A stretch of DNA of 64,000 nucleotides, from contig NC_081185.1 of the NCBI RefSeq assembly GCF_029867415.1, positions 48,229,791 to 48,293,790 of the forward strand, given 5' to 3'. How positions within the stretch are numbered: position 1 is the stretch's first letter; each line of letters begins with the position of its first letter. This document shows positions 5,921 through 62,933 of this stretch, one piece after another. The position numbers and the translations under genes are program-made. The DNA comes from Vicia villosa (taxonomy: Eukaryota > Streptophyta > Magnoliopsida > Fabales > Fabaceae). The notes below the pieces were generated by a model that was not told where the DNA came from, ran no database searches, and worked only from the letters and a program-made list of their open reading frames with translations.

Positions 5921-7145
5921 TGTGATTGCAAGCTTCTCCAAATATTATGTGTTTTGATGAAGACAACATGTGTGCACTCATAACTATCAATAAAGGATGT
6001 ATCAAAGATTGTACTACTCAAATTATGAAAGTCAAAGAAGATTGTCAACATACAAGATCACTTGAAGACTTTATGAAGCTCATCTTTCAAATAGGTACAA
6101 ACATGTTCTTATAAGAATAAATTTAGTGCTCAAAATCATCCTCAAATCATGTGCATTTTGGCTTGTTAAAAATTCTGTTTTTCTAACTTTTTCAAACTGG
6201 AAATCGCTTTCCTATAAGTGGAAATTGAGTTCCCATGCGTGCCCAGCCAAATCAGTTTCTGGAAATTTGTTTTTTGCTTGTGGAAATCGATTTCCTGTGG
6301 TGGTAAATTGATTTCCAGTATCAGTTTTTGAATTTTAAGGCACAACGTTTCAGGGAAATCGATTTCCCATATTGGTAAATCGATTTCCATCGTTCCAGAA
6401 TCAAAAAACAGTATGTTTACAATTTGAACGTGAACCTTTTCTATACCATCAAACTTAGCACCTTTTCATTGTATCATACTCATTCCTAGGGGTGTTAAGA
6501 CACTATATATATCCTATATTTTCAGAATTCAAATTACCTCTTCCTATTGAAATTTAACATCATTCTATATCATAAAATTTTCATTCAAGTGTTGTGATTA
6601 CCAAACTTTCAAAAGAATTTTCTGCATTGTCTCATAAACCATAAACAGAAAATTCATATCATATTCATCAACATTTGAGCACTTGTTATTCTTATAAATT
6701 GCATGATTGGTAGAGAAGATCAATCAAGTGATTGATACATTGTTCTTCTATTCAAACTCTTATACAAAATCAAATACTTGTTGTATTCTTGTTATCTAGG
6801 ATTGTTGGAAACAAGTTAGACACTTTGAGAGGATTGTTCTCATAAGTGGTCTTAGTGAAAAATCCAAGAGGATTGTTCTTGGTCCAAGAGGATTGTTCTT
6901 GGTGTTTGGTTAGGCTTGTACAAGATACCAACTATATTAAAATCTCTTACTGCATAAGGGGACTGGAATACTCTCGGTTTGTGAGGGGAACCAGGATATA
7001 TCCTTGTGTCATTTATTTTTCTGCACTTTACATCTTTTAGTAACATCACCATAAACCAGAAAAATAATCACCTTTACACCATAAAACCGAAAAAATTATA
7101 AAGTACCTAATTCAACCCCCCTCTTAGGCATATCTGATACTTACA
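5921..7145 (+). repeat. C2 5' LTR
   Basis: About 1225 bp, ending ...CTTACA two bases before the PBS. A TATA-like stretch CTATATATATCC begins at about 6503. Upstream of it (6199-6388) is the palindrome array listed separately. Downstream at 6846-6905 is a short direct repeat of GAGGATTGTTCTTGG. Confidence 0.65.
6199..6388 (+). promoter_or_regulatory. C2 LTR palindrome array (ATCGAT type)
   Basis: Seven copies of the palindrome GGAAATCGATTTCC or close variants start at 6199, 6220, 6261, 6282, 6303, 6354 and 6375. Steps are 21, 41, 21, 21, 51 and 21 bp. The copies at 6282 and 6354 are perfect, the latter extended to 16 bp with flanking G and C. The array ends about 115 bp before the TATA-like box, which is an enhancer-like position in U3. 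Its binding factor is unknown. Confidence 0.8.
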
Positions 7146-7147
7146 TT

Positions 7148-7159
7148 TGGCATCAGAGC
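7148..7159 (+). other. C2 primer binding site
   Basis: TGGCATCAGAGC, one mismatch from the initiator-Met tRNA primer site TGGTATCAGAGC of copia elements. Confidence 0.8.
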
Positions 7160-7192
7160 AAGTTATAGGTAACTTGTTCCTAAAGATCCAGA

Positions 7193-8047
7193 ATAGCTTC
7201 CGCAAATCAAAATCCGGTTTTCAAAGATGGTGGTTCTAACAACAAGCCTCCATTGTTTTGTGGTGAATATTTTGACTTTTGGAAAATCCGAATGAAGGCT
7301 CATCTAGAAGCACAAGGAGAAGAAGTTTGGGAGGTTGTCCTACAAGGTCCTCATGTCCCTATAACGGTCGTTAATGGTGTTGGATCGGAGAAACCTAAAG
7401 CGTCATGGGATGATAATGATAGAAAAAGGGTTCTTGCTGACAAAAAGGCGGTCAATCTTCTTCAAGGTGCTCTTAGTATGGATGAATTTTTCCGAGTATC
7501 GGCATGTACAACATCAAAGGAAATATGGGATACTCTTGTAGAAACTCATGAAGGTACCACTGAAGTTAAAAGATCAAGATTGAATACTTTAAGCCAAGAG
7601 TACGAACTTTTTAGAATGAAGCTCGGAGAAACTATTCTCGATTTGCAAAAACGATTCTTACATTTGACAAATCACTTGAAGGCACTTGGTAAGACTCTTA
7701 CTACCGAAGAACTTAATTTTAAAGTGCTCAGATCTTTGACAAGGGAGTGGCAACCAAAAGTGACGGCGATATCCGAAAAGAAAAATTTATCAAAATTTAC
7801 TTCCGCAACACTATTTGGAAAACTTCAAGAATATGAGACGGGACTTGGAAGATTGGAAAAGCATGAAAACTTAGAGAAGAAATCCAAAGGCATTGCATTA
7901 AAGGTAGATTCAAAAGAAAGCCAAATGAAAGATGCATCGGATGAAGATGAAAACTTCTTGCTTCTTGTAAAAAGGTTAGGCAAATTTTGTGGTAATAAAA
8001 ATAATATTAATAATGCTAACTATGTCAAAAGAAAGAAAGAAAAATGA
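7193..8047 (+). pseudogene. C2 gag (copia type), truncated
   Basis: An open frame of about 285 codons reads as a copia gag: a FCGEYFDFWK motif near the N-terminus, then the conserved KEIWDTL / TEVKRSRL / LNTLSQEYELF / REWQPKV blocks typical of the UBN2-like gag of plant copia elements. The expected start codon is ATA at 7193 rather than ATG; TTG at 7253 is the first alternative start. The frame stops at 8047 after a lysine-rich tail, before any zinc knuckle. The gag is close in sequence to that of C3 (14425-16164) but belongs to another LTR family. Confidence 0.8.
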
Positions 8048-8189
8048 CAAATAGAAATGATATTAATACTGCTATCGCTCGTTTGTTATCGAGGGCCCCA
8101 GTAATCCTTTGACTTCAGAATTTGGTGATTGCACGACTTTTTATCCTTTACGAATCATCTTGGATCCATGGTTTGGAATTTTGCCCCTA

Positions 8190-11100: not shown

Positions 11101-11640
11101 TTATTCAGATCTCTCTAATCAACACACATGCGCACCTTCCCATCCTTCTTAGGAACTGGCACTATATTGGCGATCCAAGGTGGGTATTCAACTACGGCAA
11201 GGAAACCTGCGTCAAACTGCTTGAGCACCTCTTCTCGGATTTTATTATCCACGTCGGGTCGAACTCTTCTGCGCTTTTGTCTGACAGGTGTACAACCCTC
11301 TTTGAGTGGTAGCCTATGTACGACGATGTCTGTATCCAACCCAGGCATGTCACGGTATGACCAAGCGAATATTTCTACATAGTCATGGAGGAGTTTGACC
11401 AGCGTTGCTTTTATGTCCTCGTTCAGTGTTGCCCCAATCTTGATTTCCTTGGGTTCTTTGTCGGTTCCCAAATTTATGATTTCGATGGCTTCTTGAGGAG
11501 GGAGCATGCTTTTGGGTTCTCTGTCGATTAGCCTTGACAATTCTTCCGGAAGTTCATCGTCTTCCTCAGACTGATTAGCGAGAGCCTCGAGTTTACATTG
11601 AGTTTCAGTAGTATTATTATCGGTGATGTTAGAAGGTGAT
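8190..11640 (-). pseudogene. E1 RT-RNase H-aRNH-integrase exon, broken
   Basis: This is the second exon of the Ogre polyprotein. The order is RT (YVDD at 10818-10829), RNase H, a second archaeal-type RNase H typical of the Tat lineage (about 9540-9920), and integrase with an HHCC finger (about 9100-9250) and DDE core. Stops interrupt RT at 11115-11117 and the RNase H/aRNH linker at 10143-10145. The first catalytic Asp of the second RNase H is Gly (codon 9900-9902). In integrase the first Asp (9030-9032) and the Glu (8739-8741) are kept, but the second Asp is Asn (8847-8849). The frame ends with two adjacent TAG codons (8187-8192). A 640-codon open stretch remains (8190-10112). The enzyme set is inactive. 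Confidence 0.93.
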
Positions 11641-12889: not shown

Positions 12890-14369
12890 TGTGAATACAA
12901 GATCACACTCAAAGATGTTTTTGATTCATGGAAAACTCAAATAAGCATTACAACAAGGCGGAAGCAGAAAACTCAAAGAAAAACAAGCATTGATCACTCA
13001 TGATAGTACAGGTTGATCTATTATGCTTATAGGTTGACTCAACACAAGCAAAACAAGAAGAATGCAGAAAAGCAGCAGTTAGGTCGACCTACTGTCAACC
13101 TAGGTCGACCTAAAATGAAGAAAAATCCATATACCTCTGCTAGGTCGACCTACACAACAACTAGGTCGACCTAATCTAAGAAAATGTTCCCAGAACGCAT
13201 CAGAAGAGGATTCTGGTCGACCTACCCCTTCAACAGGTCGACCTAACTGGGAGCAAACTTCAGCAAGCACTGCTAGGTCGACCTAACCTCTACAAGAGGT
13301 CGACCTAACTGATCAAGAAAGTCCAAAATTCAGTTATTCTTGGTTCCAACTGTTATGCAATCTTATATATTATCAAAGGTTCATTATTCAACACAACACC
13401 AACGACTGAAAAATACACAAACGCTTCTCATCTTCGTTCTTCATCATCTCCAACACAATTACACATAATCATTCTTGCGTTGCGGGTTAGTGATGAGTTC
13501 GATAACGTCCATGGAACGGAATTGAAGATTCCTAGTGGGTGAAGGTTTGTGGGGTTTGTTGGTGAATAAAATCTGCGGGTTTTGTCCTCCACGACGGGTG
13601 GTTCTTGGGGGTTTTTATCAAGAGGCGTTCATTGAGGATTCGGCTGAGTGTAACGATTGAGGAACTGGGAGTTCAAGGAATCAAGACACTGCAGAAGGGA
13701 ATCAAAGTGAAGCTCTTGGATAACCTTGATCTTGCTCAAGATTAAGGGGGAAGAAGATTCAAAGGATCGACATAATTGGTTTATCGTTTATCGCTTTGTT
13801 ATCTTCTTTGTATATACTACTTTCAACATTAATGAAAGATTACCCAATTTCAATTTGGAATTGGGGGCAGACGTAGTCGTAGCGAGGACGATCGACGAAC
13901 TGCCTAAACAAATATCGTGTTCTTGTCGCTTTTACCTTTTCATTTACATTTTGTTCATATTTGGTTATAATAGCAAATTGATCAACGATTCGAGTGTTAA
14001 GATTGTGAATTAAGTACTTACATAAACATCACAATCCACCACACATTGAATTACCTTCAATTTGATCATTATCACCAAGTGTTTGTATATTTGTTTCTAT
14101 CACTCTTACTGCATTGCAAACATTGTCCATCATACAAAAAGTTAATCTGATTTTCAATAAGAGAAACGCTTTGATTCTGCAACATATACTCTTATCATTC
14201 AACTCAAGTCTTTGACTGGTTTTTAAACACATATATAATCGTTTCGATAGTGGTTCGGAATAGACGCGAGTCGATTCAGAATCACTTCCGCTGAAAAGTC
14301 GTTTAAATCCGTAAAACTGTGAACGATCTATTCACCCCCCCCTCTAGATCCTAAGGCCAGCGTCTAACA
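12890..14369 (+). repeat. C3 5' LTR
   Basis: 1480 bp, starting TGTGAATACAAG and ending GCGTCTAACA. A TATA-like TTATATATTA is at 13363-13372, so transcripts should start near 13395. The U3 carries the AGGTCGACCT array. An open frame of 95 codons at 13726-14013 (and its copy at 19901-20188) in R/U5 has no family I recognise and is most likely chance. Confidence 0.95.
13010..13306 (+). promoter_or_regulatory. C3 5' LTR palindrome array (GTCGAC type)
   Basis: Ten copies of AGGTCGACCT or variants form five pairs: 13010/13031 (degenerate), 13081/13102, 13142/13163, 13214/13235 and 13275/13297. The spacing within a pair is 21 bp four times and 22 bp once. Pair starts are 71, 61, 72 and 61 bp apart. 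The block ends 57 bp before the TATA-like box. The sequence between palindromes is not conserved between pairs, so this is not a simple tandem duplication. Confidence 0.88.
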
Positions 14370-14371
14370 AG

Positions 14372-14384
14372 TGGCATCAAGAGC
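14372..14384 (+). other. C3 primer binding site
   Basis: TGGCATCAAGAGC follows the 5' LTR by two bases. It matches the Met-type copia primer site with one extra base and one change. Confidence 0.75.
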
Positions 14385-14424
14385 TCTGGTTTATTCCGTG
14401 CTACGTGAAACACTTATTGGAAAG

Positions 14425-16164
14425 ATGGCTTCCGGACCTAAAGGGTCTCATAATAGAGCTCCAGTTTTCAACGGTGAAAACTATGGCTATTGGAAGGATT
14501 GTATGTGTGTCCACATCAATGCAATTGATAGGAACATCTGGACAGCTATTGTCAATGGTCCCTTTCAGATCACCATGACAAATGCAGCTGGTGCAGTTGT
14601 TCCAAAACCAGAAAATACTTGGGATGCTGAAGATGAAAAGAGATATGCATACGATTGGAAAGCGAGAAACATTCTAATCTCAGCTCTAGGAGTTGATGAA
14701 TACTATCGCGTTTCCCATTGTAGATCAGCTAAAGCTATGTGGGACACATTGCAAGTTGCCCACGAGGGAACGGATGATGTCAAACTAGCTAGGATCAATA
14801 CGTTAACTCAAGAGTTCGAACTCTTCCACATGGAAGATGGTGAATCCATCGAAAACATGCAGAAGAGATTCGTTCATCTGAAAAATCGGTTAAATTCACT
14901 TGATAGACCTGTTTCCAATGCAGTTGCTACTAACAAAATCTTAAGATGCTTGAACAGGGAATGGCAACCCAAAGTTACAGCAATAAAGGAAGCAAATGAT
15001 CTAAACACTTTAGACATCACAACTCTATTTGGTAAACTAGAGGAACATGAACAACACCTTAAATGCCTTGACATGCATGAGAAAAGGACAAAGAAAGAAA
15101 AGAACATGGAGAAAGAGGTAGAGAAGAAGTCAATAGCTCTAAAAGCTTCGAGCTCCAAGACCTCAAAACGAGAGCCAAAGGATAGTGACACAAGTGATGA
15201 CGAAGACTCCGATGATGAGGAAATGGGATTGTTTGTGCGAAGATACAACAAATATCTAAAGAAAAATGGAGCAAAACATTCCGACAAAGGCTTGATCAAC
15301 TATAGAAAGCAATCAAACATGTTCAAACCAGATGACGACAACAAAGGAAAGATCAAAGGTCTTTGCTTCAATTGTGGGAAAGCCGGTCACTACAAACCGG
15401 ATTGTCCATACCTTAAGAAAGAAAAGGAGAAGAACCAAAGCAAAGGTCATAACAAATCTAAAAGAGCTTACATAGCATGGGAAAGTGATTCATATAGTGA
15501 AAGCTCATCAAGCGATGAAGAAGAATCAGCAAACCTATGTTTCATGGCTCATCAAAACAAGAAAAAGAAAGCTGTAAGTCATCTTAAACCTGAACTCGTA
15601 GATAAGGTATCTCATTCTCAACTAAAACTTGCTTTTGAAGAATTACATAGAGATGCAATTAAAGCTTTCAAACTTTTGGCCTCAAATAAGAAAATATTTT
15701 CATATCTTGAATCAAAAGTTGAGAAAACTGAAAAGGATATGGAAGCTTTAAAACAATCTATGCTAGACATTCAAAAGGACAAAGTTGAAATAGATCCTAC
15801 ATCATGGTTTGGTTGTGAGACATGTCACATTTGGCAAAAAGAAGTAAGAGATCTAAAAACCAAGTTAGACAAGGCTCTACAACCAAAAGTGACTTTTGCG
15901 GTTGATCCAAATAAGTTCAAAAGATCGTATACTCCTTTATATAGTAAATACACTTTTGTACCAAAAGTATCAACTAGCAAAACAGCATATTCTCATCATA
16001 TTACCTGTCATTATTGTTGCAAAAAGGGACATACCATTGAAAAATGCAAATTTAGGAGAATTTTAGTTCCTAAAGGAGTATTTCAATGGTTGCCTAAGTG
16101 CAACAAATTGTGTACTCACCATCCAGGACCCAATGAAGATTGGGGACCTTCCACTCTAATTTAA
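14425..16164 (+). CDS. C3 gag protein (copia type), intact
   Basis: The ATG at 14425 opens an uninterrupted frame of 579 codons. Upstream in-frame codons overlap the PBS, so this ATG is the sensible start. The N-terminal half is a copia gag (APVFNGENYGYWK, then the WQPKV block near residue 190). An acidic Ser-rich linker is followed by a first zinc knuckle C314-C317-H322-C327, a predicted coiled coil around residues 390-460, and a second knuckle C528-C531-H536-C541. It should form the virus-like particle and bind RNA in the cytoplasm. That gag is intact while pol is gone suggests gag was kept by selection or that the copy is simply young. Confidence 0.9.
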   Translation: MASGPKGSHNRAPVFNGENYGYWKDCMCVHINAIDRNIWTAIVNGPFQITMTNAAGAVVPKPENTWDAEDEKRYAYDWKARNILISALGVDEYYRVSHCRSAKAMWDTLQVAHEGTDDVKLARINTLTQEFELFHMEDGESIENMQKRFVHLKNRLNSLDRPVSNAVATNKILRCLNREWQPKVTAIKEANDLNTLDITTLFGKLEEHEQHLKCLDMHEKRTKKEKNMEKEVEKKSIALKASSSKTSKREPKDSDTSDDEDSDDEEMGLFVRRYNKYLKKNGAKHSDKGLINYRKQSNMFKPDDDNKGKIKGLCFNCGKAGHYKPDCPYLKKEKEKNQSKGHNKSKRAYIAWESDSYSESSSSDEEESANLCFMAHQNKKKKAVSHLKPELVDKVSHSQLKLAFEELHRDAIKAFKLLASNKKIFSYLESKVEKTEKDMEALKQSMLDIQKDKVEIDPTSWFGCETCHIWQKEVRDLKTKLDKALQPKVTFAVDPNKFKRSYTPLYSKYTFVPKVSTSKTAYSHHITCHYCCKKGHTIEKCKFRRILVPKGVFQWLPKCNKLCTHHPGPNEDWGPSTLI

Positions 16165-16716: not shown

Positions 16717-16869
16717 ATGTGTTCTTATCTACTCTTCTCAAATACATATGTATATGTGTTCATCATTTTCATTCATAACATACAATGTTTGGGCGTTCAA
16801 GCAAATGACAAAACAAAAATACATCATATAGAAACATTTCTAAGGCATTTTCATCATTTAAGGAAACGT

Positions 16870-17074
16870 AGGTCGACCTACTCTGTATTTGAGTCGACCT
16901 ACAGAAGAAGTTTCTTTACAGGAACTAAAAAGGTCCAGTTGCGTCGACCTACTCACAATTTAGGTCGACCTAAATTGGTCATTTTTTTTGTTACTTCTGT
17001 TAGGTCGACCCAGCCTCACTTTAGGTCGACCTACTGCTGTCATTTTTCCAGATTTGGGTCTGTTAGGTCGACCC
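16870..17074 (+). promoter_or_regulatory. C3 internal palindrome array
   Basis: Seven AGGTCGACCT-type copies start at 16870/16891, 16941/16962, 17002/17023 and 17065 (unpaired). Pair spacing is 21 bp each time and pair starts are 71 and 61 bp apart, the same steps as in the LTR, although the sequence in between differs. The block ends about 135 bp before the ATG of the second ORF at 17211. It may act as a separate internal promoter element. I see no clear TATA box between it and the ATG. Confidence 0.8.
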
Positions 17075-17210
17075 GACCCATTCTCATTCATTCAAAACAT
17101 TCCATTCTTGCATTCCCTCTCATTCTCATCACATTTGGTACGGCTAACCCTAATTCCTCAAACTCAAAATTGTCCAAAAATCATCCCTCTCACACAAAGC
17201 ATCTCCAACC

Positions 17211-18632
17211 ATGCCTCCAAAATCAAGAAAAGGAAAGGAAATTGCTTCTAGTTCATCATCTCAACCGGTAAGTGCTCTTGTTCATCCTGATTGTAGAGAA
17301 AATTTTGAGAAGTGGCAGATGAAAAGAAAAATTGTTAAGCAATATACCTATGATCCAAATCTTGTCGAAAACATGCATATCCCTGATGTCGCTGCTTTGA
17401 TTGAACATCAAAATATTCATCCCTTAGTGCAATGTGATACTCCGTACTGTGAAAATACCGTTAGGGCTTTCTATGCAGGATTTACAAAAGGGGATGGTTG
17501 TAATTTCCGTTTCAAAATGGGCTCTAGGTCGCATGTTGTTGACAAACGGGTTTGGATTAGTATCTTTGGTCTGAAAATTGTAGGTGATGAACTCTGTATG
17601 GTAGACGGGGATGTACCGGGAAACTATGACCATGAGGCCTACATGAAGACTATCCTCAAAGACCCTTCCGTATTTGACAGATCTAATGAAACAATAACAT
17701 CCGGTCATCTGAAGCGAGATCCTAGGCTCTTGAATTGGGTAATCTCAAGAATCATTCGACCAAGGGCAAGAGGATATTCGAGAATTGAAAGGAATGAAGT
17801 GGTGCTCATGTATCTGCTGCAAAATAGAACACGTTTACACTGGCCTCACTTCCTAGCTGCTAAGTTTCATGAGGTCAAACAGAAAACTACAGCCCTGTGT
17901 TATGGATCAATCATTCTAACAATTGTCAATCACTGCGGTATGCGACTTGATCACTTACACTACACTCGCATACATCAATCTCAAGAATTCTCACAAACCA
18001 CCTTGACTCTTATGGGATATCATTGGAATCCTGTTAGGAAAACCTATTATCTCATTCAAAAGGGAACAGGGAAGGTTATCTACAACTATGATGATCCCAC
18101 GGAGTTTGGAAACAATGTAGGAAATGAGGAAGAGGGAAATGATCAAGAAATAGCAAATGATGAGGATCAAACCATGGAAGACATAGCTCATGACACGGAT
18201 CCAAATTGGCAATATGTTCCGTCTCAAGAGGAAGAAATTCCTTGGGGATACACTGCTCCACCTCCTCCTGATCAATCCAACATAGTGTCTATGCTTGAAG
18301 CTATGCAACTTCAACAACAGTAGAACTTTGAAACACAGCAACTTCAGTTCCAAACCATGCAGCAGCTTCAACAAGATAGGTATCATGAACAACAACGTCA
18401 ATATCAATCGCTATATAGTTTGGTTCAAGACCACAAAAACGATTTTGAGACTTTTGCCTCCAACTCTACTCTAAGACAGAATCAGTTTGAGGAAACGGCA
18501 TTGCATCGTCATGCAAACATAAGTCAAAGCTTCAATACTCTTAACATGTCTGTGATGGATCTGTTGGAACAAGTTGAAGAAGATCGGCCTCACACATTTC
18601 AAAGAGGAAGAGGAAGAAGGGGCAGGCGTTAG
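17211..18632 (+). pseudogene. C3 second ORF, plant transposon-protein-like, one stop
   Basis: A frame of about 474 codons starts at ATG 17211 and is broken only by TAG at 18321-18323. Residues 1-20 are basic and Ser-rich. The middle (about residues 30-270) looks like the domain annotated in plants as putative plant transposon protein / Athila ORF1-like. This is my recognition by eye and needs a profile search. An acidic stretch (about 295-340) follows, then a Gln-rich, probably coiled-coil region beyond the stop, and an Arg/Gly-rich basic tail. The function is unknown; the tail suggests nucleic-acid binding. Its position after a dead pol in a copia element is unusual. Confidence 0.7.
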
Positions 18633-19064
18633 GATGGATTCTTCATCATATCATCATTTCATTTCATTAAGCATTATGTTAAAATTCTATATGATGTAGT
18701 ACCTTTTTGTGTTATTTTCTATAATTCTCTTGGACTACTATGTATGTTGTGGTGTTTCTTTAAAACATGATTGGCTCTTATTGGTTCAATATCTACATAT
18801 TATCTATTACTATGAATGCCGATATCTTCTTTATATCTTTCTTGTTACTCTCCTATTCTGTCTCTTTGTTTCTCTTTTTGATGGTGTCAAAGGGGGAGAT
18901 AGATGCAATAGATGATGAGTGATGCTGAGTGTACGGGGGAGCTTTGTGAAGAAATTGCTTGGTTGAGAGATAGATGCTGAATGTACGGGGGAGCCTTGGT
19001 GAGTCCTTATCACTTATCACCAAAGCTTCGACGAATGGTTTGCCATCATCAAAAAGGGGGAGAA
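18633..19064 (+). other. C3 3' untranslated region with polypurine tract
   Basis: Noncoding. The functional PPT is AAAAAGGGGGAGAA (19051-19064), directly before the 3' LTR. Three more GGGGGAG tracts lie upstream at 18892, 18935 and 18987. The middle two sit in near-identical phrases (GTACGGGGGAGC), so the PPT region has been duplicated. Confidence 0.85.
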
Positions 19065-20543
19065 TGTGAATACAAGATCACACTCAAAGATGTTTTTGAT
19101 TCATGGCAAACTCAAATAAGCATTACAACAAGGCGGAAGCAGAAAACTCAAAGAAAAACAAGCATTGATCACTCATGATAGTACAGGTTGATCTATTATG
19201 CTTATAGGTTGACTCAACACAAGAAAAACAAGAAGAATGCAGAAAAGCAGCAGTTAGGTCGACCTACTGTCAACCTAGGTCGACCTAAAATGAAGAAAAA
19301 TCCATATACCTCTGCTAGGTCGACCTACACAACAACTAGGTCGACCTAATCTAAGAAAATGTTCCCAGAACGCATCAGAAGAGGATTCTGGTCGACCTAC
19401 CCCTTCAACAGGTCGACCTAACTGGGAGCAAACTTCAGCAAGCACTGCTAGGTCGACCTAACCTCTACAAGAGGTCGACCTAACTGATCAAGAAAGTCCA
19501 AAATTCAGTTATTTTTGGTTCCAACTGTTATGCAATCTTATATATTATCAAAGGTTCATTATTCAACACAACACCAACGACTGAAAGATACACAAACGCT
19601 TCTCATCTTCGTTCTTCATCATCTCCAACATAATTACACATAATCATTCTTGCGTTGCGGGTTAGTGATGAGTTCGATAACGTCCATGGAACGGAATTGA
19701 AGATTCCTAGTGGGTGAAGGTTTGTGGGGTTTGTTGGTGAATAAAATCTGCGGGTTTTGTCCTCCACGACGGGTGGTTCTTGGGGGTTTTTATCAAGAGG
19801 CGTTCATTGAGGATTCGGCTGAGTGTAACGATTGAGGAACGGGGAGTTCAAGGAATCAAGACATTGCAGAAGGGAATCAAAGTGAAGCTCTTGGATAACC
19901 TTGATCTTGCTCAAGATTAAGGGGGAAGAAGATTCAAAGGATCGACATAATTGGTTTATCGTTTATCGCTTTGTTATCTTCTTTGTATATACTACTTTCA
20001 ACATTAATGAAAGATTACCCAATTTCAATTTGGAATTGGGGGCAGACGTAGTCGTAGCGAGGACGATCGACGAATTGCCTAAACAAATATCGTGTTCTTG
20101 TCGCTTTTACCTTTTCATTTACATTCTGTTCATATTTGGTTATAATAGCAAATTGATCAACGATTCGAGTGTTAAGATTGTGAATTAAGTACTTACATAA
20201 ACATCACAATCCACCACACATTGAATTACCTTCAATTTGATCATTATCACCAAGTGTTTGTATATTTGTTTCTATCACTCTTACTGCATTGCAAACATTG
20301 TCCATCATACAAAAAGTTAATCTGATTTTCAATAAGAGAAACGCTTTGATTCTGCAACATATACTCTTATCATTCAACTCAAGTCTTTGACTGGTTTTTA
20401 AACACATATATAATCGTTTCGATAGTGGTTCGGAATAGACGCGATTCGATTCAGAATCACTTCCGCTGAAAAGTCGTTTAAATCCGTAAAACTGTGAACG
20501 ATCTATTCACCCCCCCTCTAGATCCTAAGGCCAGCGTCTAACA
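19065..20543 (+). repeat. C3 3' LTR with palindrome array
   Basis: 1479 bp, a copy of the 5' LTR with about ten substitutions and one C fewer in a C-run. The palindrome array is repeated without change of spacing at 19185-19481 (for example 19256/19277). It ends GCGTCTAACA and is followed by the CCAAC target copy. Confidence 0.95.
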
Positions 20544-25874: not shown

Positions 25875-25876
25875 GC

Positions 25877-28852
25877 TGTAGCAACCTGCCCTAAAAATTA
25901 AAGATTAGAGTCGCCACCTATTCTACCAAGGCGAATAGGAAACCTCACGCAGTTAAGAGATCAAGGTAAGATACTATATTCAGGTCGAGGGAAGGTGTTA
26001 GGCACCCTCAACCCTTTCCTATAGTTTGCATTATATGGTTAATATAAAGAAAGGTAACAGACAGTTATAGGGTAAATGGAAAAAATTATCATAATTAAAG
26101 GTTTATAATTGAGGGAACATAATCGGGAGAAAATGAGATTTATGGGGAAGGGGACTCGCCTTGTTGCCAAGTGCCTACGTATCTCCTTATGGAGAATCAG
26201 AGTCAACGTAGTTCGGGAAAAGGTTGTACGCCTTAGGATTTGAATTTGATCTGATATGATTGAAAGTTTGTCTCAAAGGCTTTTGAAATAGCCTATGATA
26301 AGTTAGGAATTTGAAAGGTTTGTTTGGAAGTGTTTTCAGCTTTGGGCGTACAACCCTGATTTTAATTTGTACTATTAACCGCAATAATCGATTGATTCGA
26401 TTACCATAGTTAAGAAATTAGTAGTTAGATCGTTGCCAATTTTAATCAATTGATTTAACTATCACTAATAACGAATAATATTATTTTTTTAATAATTTTT
26501 ATGAATTAATTTGTATCGTTACCCCTCATAATCGATTGATTCGATTAAAAAGAACAATGAATTAGAATGAGAAAAATAAAAGAGTTAATCATTGCAACTA
26601 ATAAAATAGTTGAAACCATTTAACCAAATATAAATTAATTACATTTTAATTAAATAACATTTTAATTAAAATTATTATTGACCATAGCGATTAATCGATT
26701 TAATCGGAACGAACAACAAATTGTGATTTTTTAATATTAATCATGTACTAATTTATTTATAAAAAATAATTATTATTACATAAATAAATTATATCAAAAG
26801 GGATTAATTAAAACAAATAATTAATTAAAATTATTTTTAGTTTATTAGGATTAGGATTTAGTGTGGTTGTCATTAGGGTATATGGTATGGGGACAAGCTC
26901 TGGGCCATTGGATCTGGTTGGGTGGAGAAACAAGGGTCAGGTCTCAAAGGTACATGGTGCGCCCCATGATGATGTATGCATAGGATCAGAAGTTAGAATT
27001 TTCAGAAAAATAATAGCAAGGGCTAGGGATCGAACCCTAGACCCTTGGGTAACCACACACGCGCGCTCACCACCCCAACCAATAGACAATCGTGTTAAAT
27101 GGATGCATACATAATATGATATGCAAAGTAAAGAAACCTGGATTGACTTGCGCGCGAAATTTAAATCAGCCACTGGCGTAACGCCACGCCATCGTCTTCC
27201 CCAACAGACCATGCCAAATCCCGTTATTTTTAGCTATGATTTAGCTACCAGCACGCTCGTGGCCTTTTGACCCTGCAACACCAAAATCATGCATATGCAA
27301 TATAAATGTTTCGCGACCCTTCCCCTCTCTTCGTCCAAGATCCCCGGTCCTAATTATGCCCTCTATTTGCCTGAATTTAACCTAGAACGCAAACCCCCAA
27401 TTTCAACCCTAGAAAACCTTACTCGGTCGTTAATGGCAACACACAACCAGACCATGCAAACTTCAATTCAATCATCCAGCAACGTTCACAAACATCATAT
27501 GAATTATAATATACAGTCAATGATGAATGAGAATGCATGATATACACTAATCGATCCAAGTTTCAAAACACTGTACCTCGGCCAATTGAAGGTCGTTCTG
27601 GGGTTGTTGTTGCAGCGTGGTGATCCCAATCATTTCAGAAATCTCTAAGGAGCCTTTTGCAATCCTTCACGGCCTTTGAGAATCCTTAATTTGCCAAACC
27701 GATTCTTGATTTTTTATGAACTTTTCTTGCTCCCGAGTATAGTTCTTTCTCCAGAATTTCCGACCCCTGTTCATGTGGTTTGTGCTCTATACTTATAGGA
27801 GAGGGGAACAGGTCAAGAATTGTAGCCCAAAGCCTTTTGAATCAAATCTTGCTAAATTGGAGAAATTTGATTTGAAAATTCAATGGAAACTTGCTATTTT
27901 TATCCAATTATGTACCAATCTCTATAAATTATATTAGCACGAAATTATATTGCAAATTTGCAATAAATATTGATTGGGATTGGCTCATGTGAATCTTTTA
28001 ATCCAATATTTGATTTCCCTTTAAATTAAGTCATTTTAAATCATTTTTTAAGTGAAATAAAAATCATATGAAATCAAAAAATCATCTAAAATTCGTGGCA
28101 CATGGTTTGGATAACACTAATGACTTGTGGACCAAGATTGAATCATAATACCATAGGCCCATTTGCAAAAAAATCTAATTTAAAACTCTTTTATTTCACA
28201 TTTTGCCTCCAAAATTACCCAACTTTAGCAAGGCATATCTCCCTCAATTTTTAAGCTATGAAGGAGTTCTAGGACTTTTTGGAAACCTCAAGAGGTCCTC
28301 TATAAGCCACTTTGGAACATATTTTTCATTTGGAGCTTTTATCTTGATCGTATCCTCTTTGACAAAAAACTGCTTTTGAAGGATGCTTGAAAAGGACCTG
28401 TAATCTTTTGCATTATATTTCCCAAATGAAGCACTGAGTGGGGAATTTTTGATGTTCCGTGTGAAAGTTATGGTCAGTCAAAGTTGAGTTGACTTTCTCC
28501 TAGAGAAACCCTAATTTGAACCTTTTTGTATTTGTTCATCTCTGAGTTTCTACTGATAAATCATGATCAACCTTTGATCAAACGATGGATATAGACCTTC
28601 ATACTTGATGTTTGACCAAAGATCAAAGATTTGGACCATGCTTTGATTGTAGTTGACTTTTAGGTTTGGATCAGTTGATTGTGGATCTTGGAATTGTTTG
28701 AGCAGGTAGCCTTTGGAGTTGGGTCTTGATCTTTGCCATAGAATTATCTTATATTATCATGGACCATAGAGACTTGATTGACTTATGGAATGTTGTTTGG
28801 ATAGAACTCTAATTGTAGATGGGGTGAAGAAGGCAAATTTTGGGGTATGACA
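25877..28852 (-). repeat. E1 5' LTR (L1)
   Basis: 2976 bp. On the minus strand it begins TGTCATACCCCAAAATTTG at 28852, the usual start of legume Ogre LTRs, and ends TTGCTACA at 25877. A TATA-like CTATAAGTATAG lies near 27,785-27,800 (minus). The paragraph near 26,165-26,215 (TACGTATCTCC / CAGAGTCAACGTAG) recurs in the LTRs of E2, E3 and E5. The rest is AT-rich with no genes. Confidence 0.92.
27022..27090 (-). other. tRNA-like module inside L1
   Basis: The minus strand shows an A-box-like TATTGGTTGGGG (27073-27084) and a perfect B box GGTTCGATCC (27027-27036) with 36 bp between them. A 6-bp stem CTAGGG/CCCTAG surrounds the B box like a T arm. It is in the sense of the LTR. Confidence 0.6.
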
Positions 28853-36093: not shown

Positions 36094-37943
36094 TGATCGC
36101 GACTTTGCGTGTCTATTAGTCGGGATAACTGCAAGTGCACGGTCGTGTCGTGTAGTTTTAAAAGATATCGAATCCACAGGGACTATAAGTCGACCTGCCG
36201 TTATCTAAAGTTACTATGTAAAGCGAAGGCTAATGATATTTGGGTTTTTTATAAATGGGGAAACTAAAAATATTAATTCTAAGAATATAATAATAAGCGA
36301 ATATCAGTATGTATTTCATCTAACTTAGGTGATCCGAAGTTCCATTGGCCAGATTCTAATTAAATCAAAGATCTTTACTAACTATGTTATTTAAAAATCC
36401 TCCTCTCAAACTTTCGCTCTATTGATTCAGACTACGATCCTAACTCTTAATGTACGCTTTCGCCATCCCACCAGATTTAGAAACGCTTTTTGGAAATAAC
36501 GTAATTAATAAAATGCTTATTTTATGAAGTCGTTATCTACTTAAATCTCCTAATCTCAAACTCTCGCTCTGTTGACTCGGAACATGCTAATATCCCTAAC
36601 GTATGCTTTCGCCATCCCGCTCGGGTGTAAAAACACTTTTTGGAAATAAATAAGTTCTAATTAGTTTTAATACGCTTTCGCCATCCTTAAAACTAATGTC
36701 CTATGTCTACTATCCAGTTAAAGATCTCAAACTTTCGCTCTATTGATTTTAACCTTTGACCGTCTAAACCCCTCAAACTTTCGCTCTATTGGTTTTAAGA
36801 CTTACTAATTAAATTAGACATACAAACCAAAAACAAGTGATATTTAATAAAACATAATTAAGCCAATTTATTTGGGATCCCTACGGTTAAATTACTTTAC
36901 ATACCGATATCTAAATAAATTAGCCAGACATACTTAAAGAAACAAACATGAAATTATAATTATTAAACATGGAATTGTAATTATTAAACATGAAATTATA
37001 ATTACTAACCATATTATAATAATAATGATAAAACAATATTATAAGAACATAAAACTAAAATAATTGCAAATAAATAAACCTGGAAGTAAAGCAGACGAAA
37101 TAGACTTGAATTAAATTGCGAACAAAACAAATCTTGAAACTTGAATGGAGCTTTGAAATAATGTCGGCAAGATTGTGATCCAAGAGTACATAAATTGTAG
37201 GCCTAAAACTAATAGTGTGGTAGTTCCTCAATGTGAGAAACTACCACTTTTACAAAGTGATAATTTATGCCTAAAACTATGAACAGCGCTTCCGCGCCTA
37301 AAACTTGGATGCTCTCAAATGAATGCTCAGACTCTATTTATAGTGAATGGAAATGGGAGTTGCTTTTCAGCATCACGTGAGAAGTAGTGGAGATAGTGGG
37401 AAGTTGAGAAAATCATGGGGTGAGTGGACTTGGAGTTGTCCACGAAAAGAGTGGAGAAAATGGTTAAGTGGTGGGTCCCTCATCCTTCGGAGACGAGCGT
37501 CTCTTTTGGTGAGAAAGAAGCGGAGAAAATAATGGAGAGGTGGAGACGGGCGTCTCCATTTGTGACGTGGCCTTTGGACGTGGGTGAACTTGGGAGACGG
37601 ACGTCTCCTTTGATGACGTGGCCCTTGGACTTTGGAGACGGGCGTCTCAGCTTCTTCGTAGTGGGAGCTTCAGCTCCTTTGTGGGCTGGGCTTGCACTTT
37701 GCACAATTGGGTCCTCTTTGCACCCCTTTCTTACTTCAGCACCCTTTTCCATCTTTTAGGCACAAATAGTAGTGATTTTAGCTCCATTTCTTTCCTTTTC
37801 ACAAATAGTCCTCAAAACGAACATAAAACCTAAAACAATGAAAACACCAGCATAATACCGACATAAAGCAACATAATTAAGATAAAATAGGGAAATAATA
37901 TATGAAAATCAAGCCAAATATGTGATACAATTTCGTGTTATCA
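36094..37943 (-). repeat. T1 5' LTR with palindrome array
   Basis: 1850 bp, from TGATAACACG (37943, minus) to GCGATCA (36094). It is nearly identical to the 3' LTR. The TATA box is at about 37,333-37,343 and the palindrome array at 37490-37648. The plus-strand frames of 111 and 90 codons here and in the other LTR are mirror products of the palindromes, not genes. Confidence 0.93.
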
Positions 37944-38459: not shown

Positions 38460-39420
38460 TTCAGATATAGAGTCACCCTTCGGCAGTGTCTCTTTTCGAT
38501 GTCTAACTAAGGTTAGCAAAATAGGATCGGATTCCCCTTCGGCTGGTTTCATCCTTTATCGAGTCACCCTTCGGCAGTGTCTCTTTTTGAAGTCTAACTA
38601 AGGTTAGTAGTTTGGTAGATTCCCCTACGGCTGGTTTCTTCCTTTTAGAGTCGTCCCACGGCTACGGCTCTTTTTCAAGTCTAACTAAGGTTAGCAATCA
38701 GGATCAGATTCACCTACGACTGGTTTCATCCTTGTTGAGTCACCCTACGGATGTGTCTCTCTTTGAAGTCTAACTAAGGTTAGCAGTTTGGTAGATTCCC
38801 CTACGACTGGTTTCCTCCTTTTGGAGTCGTCCTACGGCTACGTCTCTTTTTCAAGTCTAACTAAGGTTAGCAATCAGGAACGGATTCCCCTACGGCTGGT
38901 TTCATCCTTGTTGAGTCACGCTACAGTTGTGTCTCTTTTTCAAAGTCTAACTAAGGTTAGCGGTTTGGTGGAGTCGTCTACGGATGGTTTCTTCCTTGTC
39001 GAGCCATGCTACGGTTGTGTCTCTTTTTCAAAGTCTAACTAAGGTTAGCAATTTGGTGGAGTCGTCTACGGATGGTTTCTTCCTTGTGGAGCCACGCTAC
39101 GGTTGTGTCTCTTTTTCAAAGTCTAACTAAGGTTAGCAATTTGGTGGATTCGTCTACGGATGGTTTCTTCCTTGTGGAGCCACGCTACGGTTGTGTCTTT
39201 TTTTCAAAGTCTAACTAAGGTTAGCAGTTTGGTAGATTCATCTACGGATGATTTCTTCCTTGTCGAGCCACGCTACAATTGTGTCTCTTTTTCAAAGTCT
39301 AACTAAGGTTAGCAATATGGTAGATTCCTCTACGGATGGTTTCTTCCTTGTTGAGCCACTCTACGGTTGTGTCTATTTTTCAAGCCTATCTAAGGTTAGC
39401 AATTTCTTTGGTCTGCCTTT
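38460..39420 (+). repeat. 88-bp tandem array in E2 3' UTR
   Basis: Eleven units are marked by GTCTAACTAAGGTTAGCA at 38501, 38592, 38679, 38768, 38855, 38945, 39033, 39121, 39209, 39297 and 39384 (last one degenerate). Steps are 87-91 bp. Units also share CTACGG.TGGTTTC.TCCTT and TGTGTCTCTTTTTC. The array ends about 140 bp before the polypurine tract. Confidence 0.92.
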
Positions 39421-43192: not shown

Positions 43193-43400
43193 TAGAGAAA
43201 TGAGTGGGATTTATTCCCTAATCTGTTTCTCAATCACTTAGTGGGAGAGAAATGAGTGGGATTCATTCCCTAATCTGTTTCTCGATCACTACTTAATGGG
43301 AGAGAAATGAGTGGGATTCATTCCCTAATCTGTTTCTCGAACATTATATAATGGGATAGAAATGAGTGAGATTCATTCCCTAATCTGTTTCTCGATCATT
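43193..43400 (+). repeat. Short tandem array in L2
   Basis: Four units of 52-56 bp containing GAGAAATGAGTGGGATT and CCCTAATCTGTTTCTCGATCA. Unit starts are at about 43194, 43246, 43302 and 43357. Confidence 0.85.
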
Positions 43401-44059
43401 ATACATTTTTATGTGATTCAAATCGCAAAGTAAATTCCCTTAAAAAATACCCAACCAAAAACATTTAAAACACCTAATAAAGGATCGAATTAAAACAAAG
43501 TGATGAAGTGGTGTGAAACCTTGTATTGGGTTTTGTTCATCATGAAGTTACATAAAAAACACAAACCCAAGATTCTTTTCTCTTTAAGAACAAGTTAAGT
43601 CCATTCCAAAATTAGGCGTATAAGTCTCCAAAGGTCGAGCATCGTGGATTGTGACCTTAACCTCTGTTCAACTAAAAAACACAAAACAAATGGAAACTAT
43701 TGAGCCGAACTACGGTAGCTCTGATTCCTTGTAAGGGATACGTAGGCATTGGGTCGCGGGGCCTAAGCGAGCACACTTGTAAATAATTCCTTCTTTTCCC
43801 CGTATTTCTTTCGCATTCATTCGCCTTTAGGTTTAGACATAGATACACCCTTTAGATAGAAACAAACATAGATGGATACCATCGAGTACGATGGGCGTGA
43901 GGGGTGCTAAAACCTTCCCCTTGCGTAACCGACTCCCGTACCCTATTCTCTGGTCGAAAGACCTTGCTTTTATTCTGAGTTAGGTTATCTGGTATTCCTT
44001 TCCCTTGATGGGATTAATATATTAGTGGCGACTCTGATCCATTTTTCGCGGTAGCGACA

Positions 44060-54580: not shown

Positions 54581-54670
54581 TGTGATGATATAGATGAGAT
54601 ACTCCTATCATAGAGATGATAAATGTCTAATCTCCTAGGGTATTTGATTTGGATATTGGGGATGCTTATA

Positions 54671-56033: not shown

Positions 56034-56092
56034 CAGGGTTTGAACCCACGCCCTAAGGTTCACCACTCAAAACAACAACCAACTGAGCTGCG
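56034..56092 (-). other. tRNA-like module inside L3
   Basis: The minus strand has A box CAGCTCAGTTGG (56079-56090) and B box GGTTCAAACCC (about 56036-56046), 31 bp apart. It is in the LTR sense and at the place corresponding to the modules of the E3 3' LTR fragment. Confidence 0.62.
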
Positions 56093-58636: not shown

Positions 58637-60019
58637 AAATGATTGAATCTTTTTGAGCACAAGGTCGCCTTCTTTGATTGTGCGAGGTCGGACCTTTTTT
58701 TCGAAAGCTTTCTTCATTCTTTGTTGATATAGTTGTCCGTGGCATAAAGCTGTCATGCGCTTTTCTTCGATTAAGTTCAACTCATCGAATCTGTTTTGAC
58801 ACCACTCGGCTTCTGTCAATTTTGCCTCCATCAAGACTCTCATTGATGGGATCTCAACCTCTATGGGTAGGACTGCCTCCATACCATATACAAGGGAGAA
58901 AGGAGTTGCTCCATTCGAAATACGTACAGATGTACGGTAACCGTGAAGAGCAAACGGGAGCATTTCATGCCAATATTTGTAAGTGATGACCATTATCTGA
59001 ATGATTTTCTTGAAGTTTTTGTTAGCTGCTTCTACAGCTCCATTCACCTTTGGTCTGTAAGGAGACGAGTTTTGATGTTCAATCTTGAATTCATCACAAA
59101 GTTCCTTCATCATTTTGTTGTTCAAATTTGACCCATTGTCAGTGATTATCTTTCTAGGAATGCCATAGCTACAGATGATGTGATTCTTGATAAAACTGAT
59201 GACAACTTGTCTTGTGACGTTTGCATATGAAGCTATTTCGACCCACTTGGTAAAATAGTCTATGGCTACCAAGATGAAGCGATGTCCGTTAGACGCTTTT
59301 GGCTCGATCATTCCGATCATGTCGATTCCCCGCATGGAGAAAGGCCAAGGGGAAGAGAGTATGTTGAGAAGAGATGGTGGCACATGAATTCTATCGGTGT
59401 AGATCTGACATTTGTGACACCTCTTTGCATACTGGTAGCAATCTGACTCCATCGTCAGCCAATAATATCCTGCTCTTAGTATTTTCCTTGTCATGGTGTG
59501 TCCATTGGTGTGAGTACCAAAGGAACCTTCATGTATTTCTCTCACGAGTGTTTTTGCTTCGTTTCTATCAACGCATCTGAGCAGGACCATGTCGAAAATT
59601 CTCTTGTACAGAACATCTTCATTTAGGAAGAATCTGCCAGCTAACTTTCTCAAAGTTTTTCTATCTTTCTTTGATGTCCCAAGAGGGTACTCTTGCCTTT
59701 GAAGAAAGTTTTTGATGTCGTGATACCACGGTTTGTCGTCGATGATTGTTTCTACTATGAAAACATGAGCGGGCCTATCCAGGCGCATGACATCGATCTG
59801 AGGAATGTCATTCTAATGATTTATCCTAATCATGGAAGAGAGTGTGGCTAATGCATCAGCCAAGTTATTTTCTCCACGAGGAATGTGATGAAAATCTACC
59901 CTGTCGAAGAATGGTAACAATCTTCTTACGTAGTCTTTGTATGGGATTAGCCCAGGTTGGCGTGTTTCCCATTCTCCTTTGACTTGATTAATGACTAACG
60001 CAGAATCTCCGTATACATC
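58637..60019 (-). pseudogene. E4 Ogre second RNase H and integrase fragment
   Basis: The end of the second RNase H (VYGDSALVI context at about 60,000) leads into integrase with its HHCC finger (about 59,430-59,560) and an intact D-D-E set (GIDMIG, TDNGSN, NGAVEAA). One stop (TAG near 59,812) lies between RNase H and integrase. The frame ends where E3 inserted (58636/58637), and the upstream part is cut by the LTR of E5 (60019/60020). Compared with E1, the integrase active site is conserved. Confidence 0.92.
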
Positions 60020-62113
60020 TGTAGCGGGGAAAATCTGATATCGAAGCCATGAGATTGACTCGAATCAATATTCCGTTTGAAATCGCCACCCCGCTTTATT
60101 TTTTCAAAGGAAAAGGGAAAAGAACAAAAAAACCCAAAGTTTGTTTTTAAAACAAAAAGAAAACTCAGGTTCGGGTGTTGATTATATGAGGGGAAGGTTT
60201 TAAGCACCCCTCATATCTGTGGTACTCCACAGGAACCTTTCTGAAAATCTGTGTCGTGTGTGCTAAAAAAACGGTTCATTTTATTTTTAAAATAAGCTCG
60301 GCAAAGCGTTAATCTTTGGGCCTACATACCTCCTCGGTGCAATGGAGAAGTCAGAGCTAATGTAGTTCCGCTTAAAGGGAAAATATTTTTTAAAACGAAT
60401 AAACACTTTATCGTCGTTGGAGAGAAATACTCAGCCATTGATCTTGAGCATGAGAACAAACGAGTTCTTTGCATCGCAAATGAAAGAAGGGCTCCAACTC
60501 GGATAAAATCGACGAGTATGCCACTAGCTCTCTCACGCGGAAAAGATCTCATTATATCAATCAATTTCAAAATCGTGGGGTATAACCACTCGTTTCGATA
60601 ATTAATAGTGTCTAAACTTTTGAAGAAAAGAGGAAAAAGGCCACTAAGGGCGAAAGATATTTTTTTAAGAAAAAGGTTTTGAAAAGGTTTACAAACATAA
60701 GAAGGTTTTTGAAAAAGGGAGAAGATTTTGAAAATTTAAGAATGGGAGGAGATGAAGAGGCTATCCTATTGCGTAAAATAAAAGCTAAAGAAAAGAACGG
60801 TCTAACCGAAATAAGAAGCCAACACTTGACATTGTGAGTCAAGGTAGATTTCCCATCCTTTGGAATATCAATACTAAACCAACATTATCACTTGGGGATC
60901 CGGATGAAATTATTATCTTAGCACCACTTTGCATTAAGCACATTAAAATTCTGACGAAAATCGGGCAGAGTAACGGCTGTTTTTGGGTAAAATCCTTATA
61001 TCAATGCCTTGGAATTAACCATCAAGGGCTTTCAAGGAAATACCTGCACACATAAACAGACAACAATCCAATGCCAGACAGACAGAATAACAACAGAGTA
61101 ATAACAGAATAAGGGTCCAGAGGCACTAAGTCCATAAGTCTGAATCTCCAAAATGCTAGGGATAGTAACCAATAGTCCAAAAGAGAGCCTTAAGTGTTTT
61201 TTAGATTTTTTGTTGTTTATTAGTGTTTTAGCATAAAAGTAAAGTATGGTCCAAGTGGACAAAGTGAAAATGGCGGAAACATAAACATATGTCCAAATGG
61301 ACAAAGAGAAAATAGCGGAATATAAACGTCCAAATGGACAAAGAGAAAATAGCGGAATGTAAATATGATGAAATGATAAAATAAAGCGATAAAGCGAGAA
61401 ATATAAAGAGCGGTATAATAAAGTGCGAAAATTAAAGTCAATTGTTAAATGTTAAAGATAACCATCTTGAAACTTGTCAAGTATGTTATCAAAGTTAGTA
61501 ATGAAGATCGATGGTGAGTGAAGGATGTTCTCGGATTTAAATTCAATGGAACTTTATCAGAAGCTTGATAAAATCATAGCGACTACACGATAAAATTCCA
61601 TAAGTCATAAATCAACCGCATACAATTCTCTTCCATGTTTGATCTTTTTGATTCGGGACACGAAATATTGCGCTATGTTAAGCAGATCGCCAAGTGATTT
61701 ATGTAGAAATCACCCTACAACGAGGCCGGTCAAAACTTTATGTGCTAATGCATGCGAGAGGAATGATATGTAGATCATTCTCTGAAAGCAATACCGCACG
61801 AAAAGAAAAATGGTGAGTGATCTAGTCTTTACTAAGAATCCATAAGAATTCTCAAAGTATTAAGACTTTCATCGATCAAAATAAAGAGAAGTAAAAGATG
61901 GAACCACATTAAAAGCTCCTTTCATCCATAATTTCAATCACATAATTTTGCGGATTTGGATTCTCATCCTATCGACGCCCTAAGTCCATTGAAATTAGAG
62001 AGAAATTAGGCCTCTAGTTTGTGATTCAAAGAAAATATCAAAAGAATGGAGTAGAAGAAGAGTTAGAACCAAAAACAAGTCAAAAATAGCAAAAACAAGC
62101 ATTCTGCCTCACT

Positions 62114-62220
62114 GGAAATCGATTTACCTCTGTAGGAAATCGATTTCCTGCCTGTAGAATTCAGATCTGGCACAAAAAACAGAGTGGAAATCGATTTCCC
62201 TCTGTAGGAAATCGATTTCC
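62114..62220 (-). promoter_or_regulatory. E5 LTR palindromes downstream of TATA
   Basis: Two pairs of GGAAATCGATTTCC: 62114/62135 and 62186/62207. Within-pair spacing is 21 bp, and 51 bp separates 62135 and 62186. They lie about 450-560 bp downstream of the TATA box in LTR sense, so in the transcribed R/U5 part. Confidence 0.85.
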
Positions 62221-62898
62221 TGCGCACAGTTTTCAAAAAAACAGCATTATGAACTTTGAAACTTGATTTAGGCAAACATACAAACACCTTATGATCACAT
62301 ATTCATTGGAGCACGAATTTTCCATCAAATCACCATCAAATAAGACCAATATAGCATCAAAGATGCATTGAACACAAGCAACAAAGAATCACATTATGGT
62401 AGATGGAAAAGGATGATGAAAATTACCAATTCTTGAACAAAACTTAGATCCACTTCAACAATCACCAACACAAATCTTGATCTCTCAACAATTGAAGAAA
62501 AAAGAGTGAAATGGATGGTGGTTTAGCTCAAAGTTTGTGAGGTTCAAGGTGTGACTCACAAACTTTATGAAAGAATAAAGAGCTTTGGTGAATTTGGTAG
62601 GGATGAGGAGAGAAATTGCAAGGGGTTTTTTGGCTCTCAAAGCTTGAGAAATGAGAGAGTAGAGGTCTCTATTTATAGAATTGGAGCAAGAGTAGTGGCA
62701 AATTGGTCTTTTTGTGTTTGGTAATTAATTTGTGGTTAATTGGTAATTAAAGTGGGATTTAAATGGTAAAATGATGTTTAAGTGGGTTTAATGAAGGAGT
62801 TAATTTTGATGAGGTGGAAAATTGGTAAAATGATCAAATAAAAGGTGCCAAAATGATGTCAAGCTTCCCTCCTTATATTTTTTTGAATTTTGCGCACA

Positions 62899-62933
62899 GG
62901 AAATCGATTTCCCACAGGGGTAAATCGATTTCC
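62899..62933 (-). promoter_or_regulatory. E5 LTR palindrome pair upstream of TATA
   Basis: GGAAATCGATTTCC at 62899 and its variant starting GTAAATCG at 62920, spaced 21 bp, about 220 bp upstream of the TATA box in LTR sense. Confidence 0.85.

Follow-up and report, generated by a model that had tools for sequence, protein, structure and literature searches.

In a stretch of 64,000 nucleotides from Vicia villosa (RefSeq assembly GCF_029867415.1, contig NC_081185.1, positions 48,229,791 to 48,293,790, forward strand; hereafter the window, to which all coordinates refer), three long terminal repeat (LTR) retrotransposons carry arrays of short palindromes arranged in pairs about two helical turns apart, the pairs being separated by further whole turns. 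Two of these elements, C2 and T1, belong to Ty1/copia and the third, E5, to Ty3/gypsy. The window represents 64 kb of a 2.03-Gb genome, with nested LTR retrotransposons abundant. On balance, we think that the arrays are probably cis-regulatory DNA of the retrotransposons, in which paired sites for a dimeric protein, likely a host factor, would face the same side of the double helix and serve the LTR promoter or its release from silencing.

Two palindromes form arrays in the window, GGAAATCGATTTCC in the C2 LTR and in E5, and TAGGTCGACCTA in the LTRs and the interior of T1, both with TCGA at their centre. The C2 array (6199..6388, plus strand) comprises three pairs of GGAAATCGATTTCC-type sites centred at 6205, 6226, 6288, 6309, 6360 and 6381 (gaps of 21, 62, 21, 51 and 21 bp), and a TATA-like sequence (TATATA, 6504..6509, plus strand) lies about 120 bp past the last palindrome. 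In the 5' LTR of T1, eight TAGGTCGACCTA-type sites form four pairs (13080..13307, plus strand; centres 13085-13301; gaps of 21, 40, 21, 51, 21, 40 and 22 bp) and are followed after about 60 bp by a TATA-like sequence (TATATA, 13364..13369, plus strand); the 3' LTR repeats the identical eight-site layout (centres 19260-19476). Seven more TAGGTCGACCTA-type sites occupy the interior of T1 (16868..17075, plus strand; centres 16874, 16895, 16945, 16966, 17006, 17027 and 17069; gaps of 21, 50, 21, 40, 21 and 42 bp), outside any LTR and ahead of an open reading frame (ORF) resembling Transposase_32. In E5, which lies on the minus strand, one pair (62898..62933; centres 62926 and 62905, 21 bp apart) is found about 230 bp upstream of the TATA-like sequence TATAAATAGA (62668..62677, minus strand), and a two-pair array (62113..62220, minus strand; centres 62213, 62192, 62141 and 62120; gaps of 21, 51 and 21 bp) about 460-560 bp downstream of it. 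The gypsy element E5 and the copia element C2 share one palindrome, including a variant, GGTAAATCGATTTCC, at one site of a pair. A preliminary description of this DNA had placed CG at or next to the centre of every palindrome, which holds for the TCGA centres of both palindromes but not for C2 sites 6226 and 6309 (two of the six), where CG is lost in the window copy. It is kept at each of these two sites in 19 of 21 aligned family sequences (the best-scored 40 of 734 candidate places were taken, among them the window copy; these are 95-100% identical to the array region, and 20 of the other 39 were aligned).

Throughout the arrays the two sites of a pair are 21 bp apart, with a single distance of 22 bp in each T1 LTR, and the distance from one pair to the next is 40-42 or 50-51 bp, with one of 62 bp in C2. 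When the window was scanned for like, CG-containing near-palindromes lying 10-60 bp apart, all 18 pairs fell at 21, 22, 40, 42 or 51 bp, five of the 18 being the T1 3' LTR repeating the 5' LTR; 20 Markov-1 control windows held a mean of 0.15 like pairs and a maximum of one. The palindrome arrays are not a chance product. Nine inter-pair gaps, taken from the T1 LTR, the T1 interior, C2 and E5, show a phase coherence of R=0.90 at 10.2 bp (p ~8e-5) and of R=0.92 at 10.5 bp, and the best period was 10.7 bp when 8-16 bp were scanned (p ~3e-4). Helical-phase spacing within the TCGA-centred arrays is supported by these data, in agreement with the preliminary description, whose list of distances (21-22, 40-42 and 50-53 bp) lacks the 62-bp gap of C2. 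The same description counted four element families and three palindromes; our scans of the window recovered three array-bearing elements, none of them matching its family 'C3', and two palindromes in array form. A looser palindrome scan of the window outside the known arrays gave no further pair. The best candidates for a third array palindrome, three imperfect ATCGAT-containing palindromes near 26389, 26533 and 26696 (26385-26710), are spaced 144 and 163 bp apart and were rejected as off the spacing rule; they are perhaps what had been taken for the third palindrome.

The two types of array in T1 are informative on the origin of this spacing. With the palindromes masked, no significant similarity remains between the LTR array and the interior array (best E 0.20). 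As they have the same palindrome and the same grammar of 21, 40 and 50 bp with dissimilar spacers, the spacing is not easily accounted for by spacers of common descent. Comparison with L028, a relative of T1 from the chromosome sample described below, points in the same direction. In the LTR array, palindromes are identical at 94 of 96 positions, spacers at 103 of 132 and the rest of the LTR at 1030 of 1248 (Fisher tests of the palindromes, 7e-6 vs spacers and 6e-6 vs the rest of the LTR). For the interior array, the corresponding figures are 80/83 for palindromes, 74/123 for spacers and 1732/2170 elsewhere (3e-10 vs spacers, 3e-5 vs elsewhere), so that overall the palindromes are 96-98% and the spacers 60-78% identical. 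The sole indel between the two LTR arrays is an insertion of 11 bp, which changes a gap of 40 bp into one of 51 bp. We then considered the T1 family through the 40 scored of 3158 candidate places, both window LTRs included; 20 of the other 38 were aligned and, together with the two window LTRs, these 22 sequences contain no indel inside the LTR array. Variable columns among 14 T1 elements number 2 of 64 in the core, 15 of 132 in the spacers and 29 of 135 outside. Three of nine differences between the LTRs of one element, which arose after insertion (eight pairs), struck the core, vs none of the 30 variants that elements have in common (Fisher 0.009); counting every variable column changes the latter figure to 2/48 (p 0.024). 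These alignments give good support to the view that the T1 palindromes are under constraint.

Arrays were also present in 3 of 20 evenly spaced 10-kb stretches (200 kb in all) sampled from chromosome C1, and a composition control of this sample, run six times, gave no pair in 200 kb five times and a single pair once. The first, L028, is a copia relative of T1 in which RVT_2 is followed by an array, a Transposase_32-like ORF and an LTR, the LTR gaps in T1 orientation being 21, 50, 21, 40, 21, 51, 21, 51 and 22 bp. Sequences L001-L008 were not used as relatives, being merely ~41% identical to the L028 reverse transcriptase (RT). The second, L020, is a gypsy element that we take from its layout to be Athila-like, with pairs of TACGCGTA in two arrays: one adjoins a TATA-like sequence and presumably belongs to an LTR, no LTR pair being seen at the locus, and the other is flanked by the integrase ORF on one side and a Transposase_32-like ORF on the other. 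An array is hence placed between pol and the Transposase_32-like ORF both in copia (L028, with RVT_2 upstream) and in gypsy (L020, with integrase upstream). The third, L025 (2158-9546), is a recent gypsy gag-protease element whose LTRs are 99.7% identical and whose scanned ORFs contain no RT; units of GACACGGCCGTGTC recur with a period of 90-92 bp in each LTR and in one interior array, and CACGGCCGTG in this element contains CGGCCG. Ty3/gypsy-type domains are found in the array carriers E5, L020 and L025. Taken together, the three sampled elements indicate that the palindrome repeats of the LTR recur after pol or gag, with strict phasing shown for the TCGA palindromes alone.

The ORF behind the interior array of T1 (17211..18320, plus strand) is in an envelope-like (env-like) position and resembles PF20167 Transposase_32 (5.5e-7, 30.1 bits, for a Pfam cut-off of 45). 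The Transposase_32 scores of T1, L028 and L020 are all under the curated cut-off, and searching for homologues of the gypsy Transposase_32 fragment brought up no match at E 0.001. The T1 ORF stops at a TAG (18321 onward), and a related protein of 473 amino acids, P0001, which is 89% identical, is longer.

From the sites, their spacing, the difference in conservation between palindromes and spacers in T1, and their placement by the LTR promoter and ahead of the extra ORF, we infer dimer binding, cooperativity, contact on the same face, activation and the type of binder. Each palindrome would be bound by a dimeric sequence-specific protein, and two sites 21 bp apart, that is two helical turns, would bring two dimers into contact on the same face of the DNA. 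As the pairs are set a further four, five or six turns apart, the whole array could present a single face. Such an array may drive or de-silence the LTR promoter; where an extra gene follows pol, a second array may drive that gene. A host transcription factor is the most likely binder, and our default, because the copia element C2 and the gypsy element E5 share one palindrome.

Several observations weigh against this cis-regulatory reading. Among the nine gaps, 51 and 40 bp each occur three times, and within one array some gaps may have been copied from others, so that they amount to fewer than nine independent events and the phase p-values are optimistic. The interior arrays of T1 and L028 differ by three indels (1, 2 and 1 bp), the density of indels between these two elements is not lower inside the arrays than outside (4 in 435 bp vs 33 in 3496 bp), and 6 of the 21 C2 sequences have one or two extra spacer bases that turn the 51-bp gap into 52 or 53 bp. 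Two of the three core differences seen in T1 after insertion come from a single element. In C2, core differences are 4/28 after insertion vs 1/15 among shared variants (p=0.64), and palindrome constraint in this family gives no significant signal by the test used, the pooled test with T1 giving p=0.02. The placement of the arrays by the promoter is not uniform either. The palindromes had been described as mostly lying in U3 close to the TATA box, which is correct for the C2 and T1 LTRs; the interior array of T1 is outside the LTR, with no TATA hexamer between it and the Transposase_32-like ORF, and four of the six E5 palindromes are downstream of the TATA-like sequence of their LTR. The proposal of an architecture common to unrelated LTRs is supported by the copia and gypsy LTRs of C2 and E5, which share both architecture and palindrome. 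In L020, however, paired sites are 11 bp apart and the gaps between pairs (n=11, 19-63 bp) show weak phasing, with R=0.55 and p=0.035 for a period of 10.2 bp; p is 0.03-0.05 when the period is fixed and 0.24 when it is scanned, gaps such as 38, 47 and 59 bp fitting whole turns poorly. Finally, the LTR and interior arrays of L025 are ~74% alike over their whole length, spacers included, as expected from plain duplication.

The adjacency of the arrays to the Transposase_32-like ORF in copia (T1, L028) and gypsy (L020) raises the possibility that the protein encoded by this ORF binds the arrays of its own LTR and of its own gene, countering silencing or regulating transcription, with palindrome and protein co-diverging by family. 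Such self-recognition would resemble that of the VANC proteins of VANDAL elements, which bind family-specific short motifs in noncoding repeats and evolve with them (PMC5735166, PMC10398659). The palindrome of the copia elements T1 and L028 indeed differs from that of the gypsy element L020, and within an element the two arrays have a common palindrome; the ends of the proteins are basic, as in a nuclear protein (MPPKSRKGKE at the start of the T1 ORF, RGRGRRGRR at the end of P0001), and in sunflower a nuclear localization signal is predicted for an Athila ORF that resembles PF20167 (PMC11728184). However, the VANDAL elements are DNA transposons, their protein contains DUF1985 rather than Transposase_32, and the string 'palindrom' is absent from the main texts of PMC5735166 and PMC10398659. 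A Pfam scan of the T1 ORF (E 0.001) returned PF20167 alone, below its cut-off, with neither DUF1985 nor any known DNA-binding domain, and the AlphaFold model of this ORF is unusable (mean predicted local distance difference test score, pLDDT, 32.5) and lends the idea no structural support. Moreover, E5 shares its palindrome with C2, eight scanned E5 ORFs gave no Transposase_32 match, and L025 possesses arrays with no such match in the two scanned of its three long ORFs. We consider self-recognition rather unlikely.

A function at the RNA level seems unlikely as well. Here the palindromes would act as transcript hairpins, dimerisation signals or templates for small interfering RNA (siRNA), and their self-complementarity would be the selected trait. 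The placement of the arrays is compatible with this reading, as sites in U3 are also present in the RNA through the 3' LTR. Predicted folds give stems of 12-15 bp within the pairs of C2 and E5, and suggest that T1 sites pair partly within the pair and partly with distant sites; palindrome clusters of maize Sireviruses are small-RNA hotspots (Bousios 2016, as cited in PMC10760457 and PMC5311732). Nevertheless, hairpins need no whole-turn spacing on DNA, the spacers of T1, and hence the loops, diverge freely, and the production of siRNA would be expected to select against the arrays.

By analogy with VANC, one could also imagine a portable grammar, in which whole-turn palindrome pairs would stand at the LTR promoter of Sireviruses, Athila-like and Ogre-type elements and, in those that have it, ahead of the Transposase_32 gene, and in which the Transposase_32 protein would be a sequence-specific oligomer that reads this lattice as an anti-silencer encoded by the element; we regard this extension as quite unlikely. 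Very unlikely in our opinion is an absence of function, in which a unit with its palindrome would have multiplied through tandem duplication and gene conversion, the spacing being inherited from the first unit: duplication is plain in L025 (period 90-92 bp, neighbouring units ~82-86% alike, LTR and interior alike as noted above), the upstream pair of E5 is an inverted relative of the other pairs (84% over 58 bp) and C2 lacks significant constraint, but T1 spacers have diverged beyond recognition with palindromes and distances kept, post-insertion changes strike the T1 core where variants shared between elements never do, and the same spacing occurs with two palindromes, in copia and in gypsy.

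Arrays of TGGTAATCGATTACCA occur in soybean, and one study reportedly describes retrotransposons that have palindromes as insertion targets. The closest published system is that of the palindromic repeated motifs (RM boxes) of Sireviruses, so that a named element of this kind does exist, contrary to the preliminary description, which knew of none. RM boxes are described for 13 Sireviruses, nine of which have an env-like gene (PMC2829016). In the LTR they precede the TATA box, and further copies precede the env-like gene, for which an internal promoter was suggested; a comparison with other Ty1/copia elements led to their publication as a Sirevirus-specific feature, and they have a CGG-CCG core except in Tnd-1. 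The arrays described here are similar in that palindromes in high copy number precede the TATA-like sequence of the LTR in C2 (six sites) and T1 (eight sites), and in that extra copies lie 5' of the env-like gene in T1 and L028, and also in the gypsy element L020. In Table 3 of PMC2829016, the Vitis RM CGGTCGACCG contains the GGTCGACC core and the Tnd-1 RM ACAATCGATTGT contains AATCGATT. In contrast to RM boxes, the core in the window is TCGA and not CGG-CCG (which the published Tnd-1 RM also lacks), the spacing is paired and phased, a feature absent from the consulted passages of PMC2829016, and the arrays extend beyond Sireviruses to the Ty3/gypsy elements E5, L020 and L025.

In maize, palindrome clusters of Sireviruses form a cis-region of the LTR that is thought to be regulatory and to be a target of host silencing, and the palindrome was also found in Helitrons (Bousios et al., 2016, as cited in PMC10760457 and PMC5311732). 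These palindromes are read through RNA secondary structure, and their spacing is not discussed in the passages of the two citing texts at hand. The extra gene after pol also recalls Grande, which is reported to have such a gene, transcribed from a promoter of its own and coding for a nuclear protein (Gomez-Orte, 2013); the accessory ORF of Grande is, however, cited as antisense.

What was already known is thus that palindrome arrays near the promoter are a feature of one retrotransposon group, the Sireviruses. New are the arrays of Ty3/gypsy elements (E5, L020, L025), the paired helical spacing and, in copia as well as gypsy, the position of arrays beside a Transposase_32-like ORF; a literature search covering titles and the first lines of abstracts, with few subscription papers among them, found no report of paired whole-turn spacing or of such arrays in Ty3/gypsy. 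LTR promoters spaced so strictly by whole turns would lend themselves to the study of cooperative binding in plants, and could explain why such palindromes are retained despite drawing small RNAs. The occurrence of a single architecture in both superfamilies, beside the same kind of extra gene in the two lineages in which that gene was found, also suggests a concrete candidate role for the 'envelope-like' genes of plants.

T1 is Sirevirus-like, as judged from its copia gag, its poly-C signal, its four polypurine tracts and its relative L028, in which RVT_2 lies upstream of the array. Its 5' LTR (12890..14369, plus strand) is 99.3% identical to the 3' LTR (19065..20543, plus strand), and a copia-type gag with a zinc knuckle follows (14368..16161, plus strand; PF14223 8.9e-25, PF00098 1.0e-4). 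A run of eight C shortly before the LTR end forms the poly-C signal, and the junction with the primer binding site (PBS) reads CA then AGTGG, which resembles the CA/ATTGG of Sireviruses without being identical to it. Four polypurine-tract-like copies of GGGGGAG precede the 3' LTR (18892..19064, copies at 18892-19056, plus strand). C2, also Sirevirus-like, is represented by a single LTR (5947..7146, plus strand) whose limits were set by eye from its TG start, poly-C stretch, CA end and PBS-like stretch. Its poly-C signal is a run of six C shortly before the LTR end, its junction (CA then TTTGG) again resembles the Sirevirus one without being identical, and a copia-type gag ORF lies behind it (7184-8044, plus strand; PF14223 1.9e-27).

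E5 enters the window with its 3' LTR (60018..63193, minus strand), the body and the 5' LTR lying to the right. Both LTRs measure ~3.2 kb, start ~20 kb apart and are 98.0% identical over 3177 columns. The element (sequences L029/L030) encodes a DUF7745 ORF, gag, a protease-like domain, RT (RVT_1), two RNase H-type domains (RT_RNaseH, RVT_3) and integrase. We take it to belong to the Ogre/Tat lineage of Ty3/gypsy, given its very large size, the extra ORF before gag and the two RNase H-type domains. The inverted kinship between its upstream pair (62898-62933) and its downstream pairs (62113-62220) suggests that a pair may move as a unit, on either strand. Tandem repeats of 31 and 100 bp stand just before the 3' LTR (window 63493-64000; L029 1-332), and a variable 3' region with tandem repeats is a habit of the Ogre/Tat lineage.

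Other repeats in the window include an LTR-like direct repeat pair of 1845 bp (31295-33139 and 36099-37943, 99.6% identical) with a 21-bp AT-rich tandem repeat in each copy; the one scanned ORF in the interior of this pair had no Pfam match. Two tandem arrays were also noted, at 38486-39405 (unit of 88 bp, 10.4 copies, 85% matches) and at 43194-43403 (unit of 55 bp, 3.9 copies, 90% matches).

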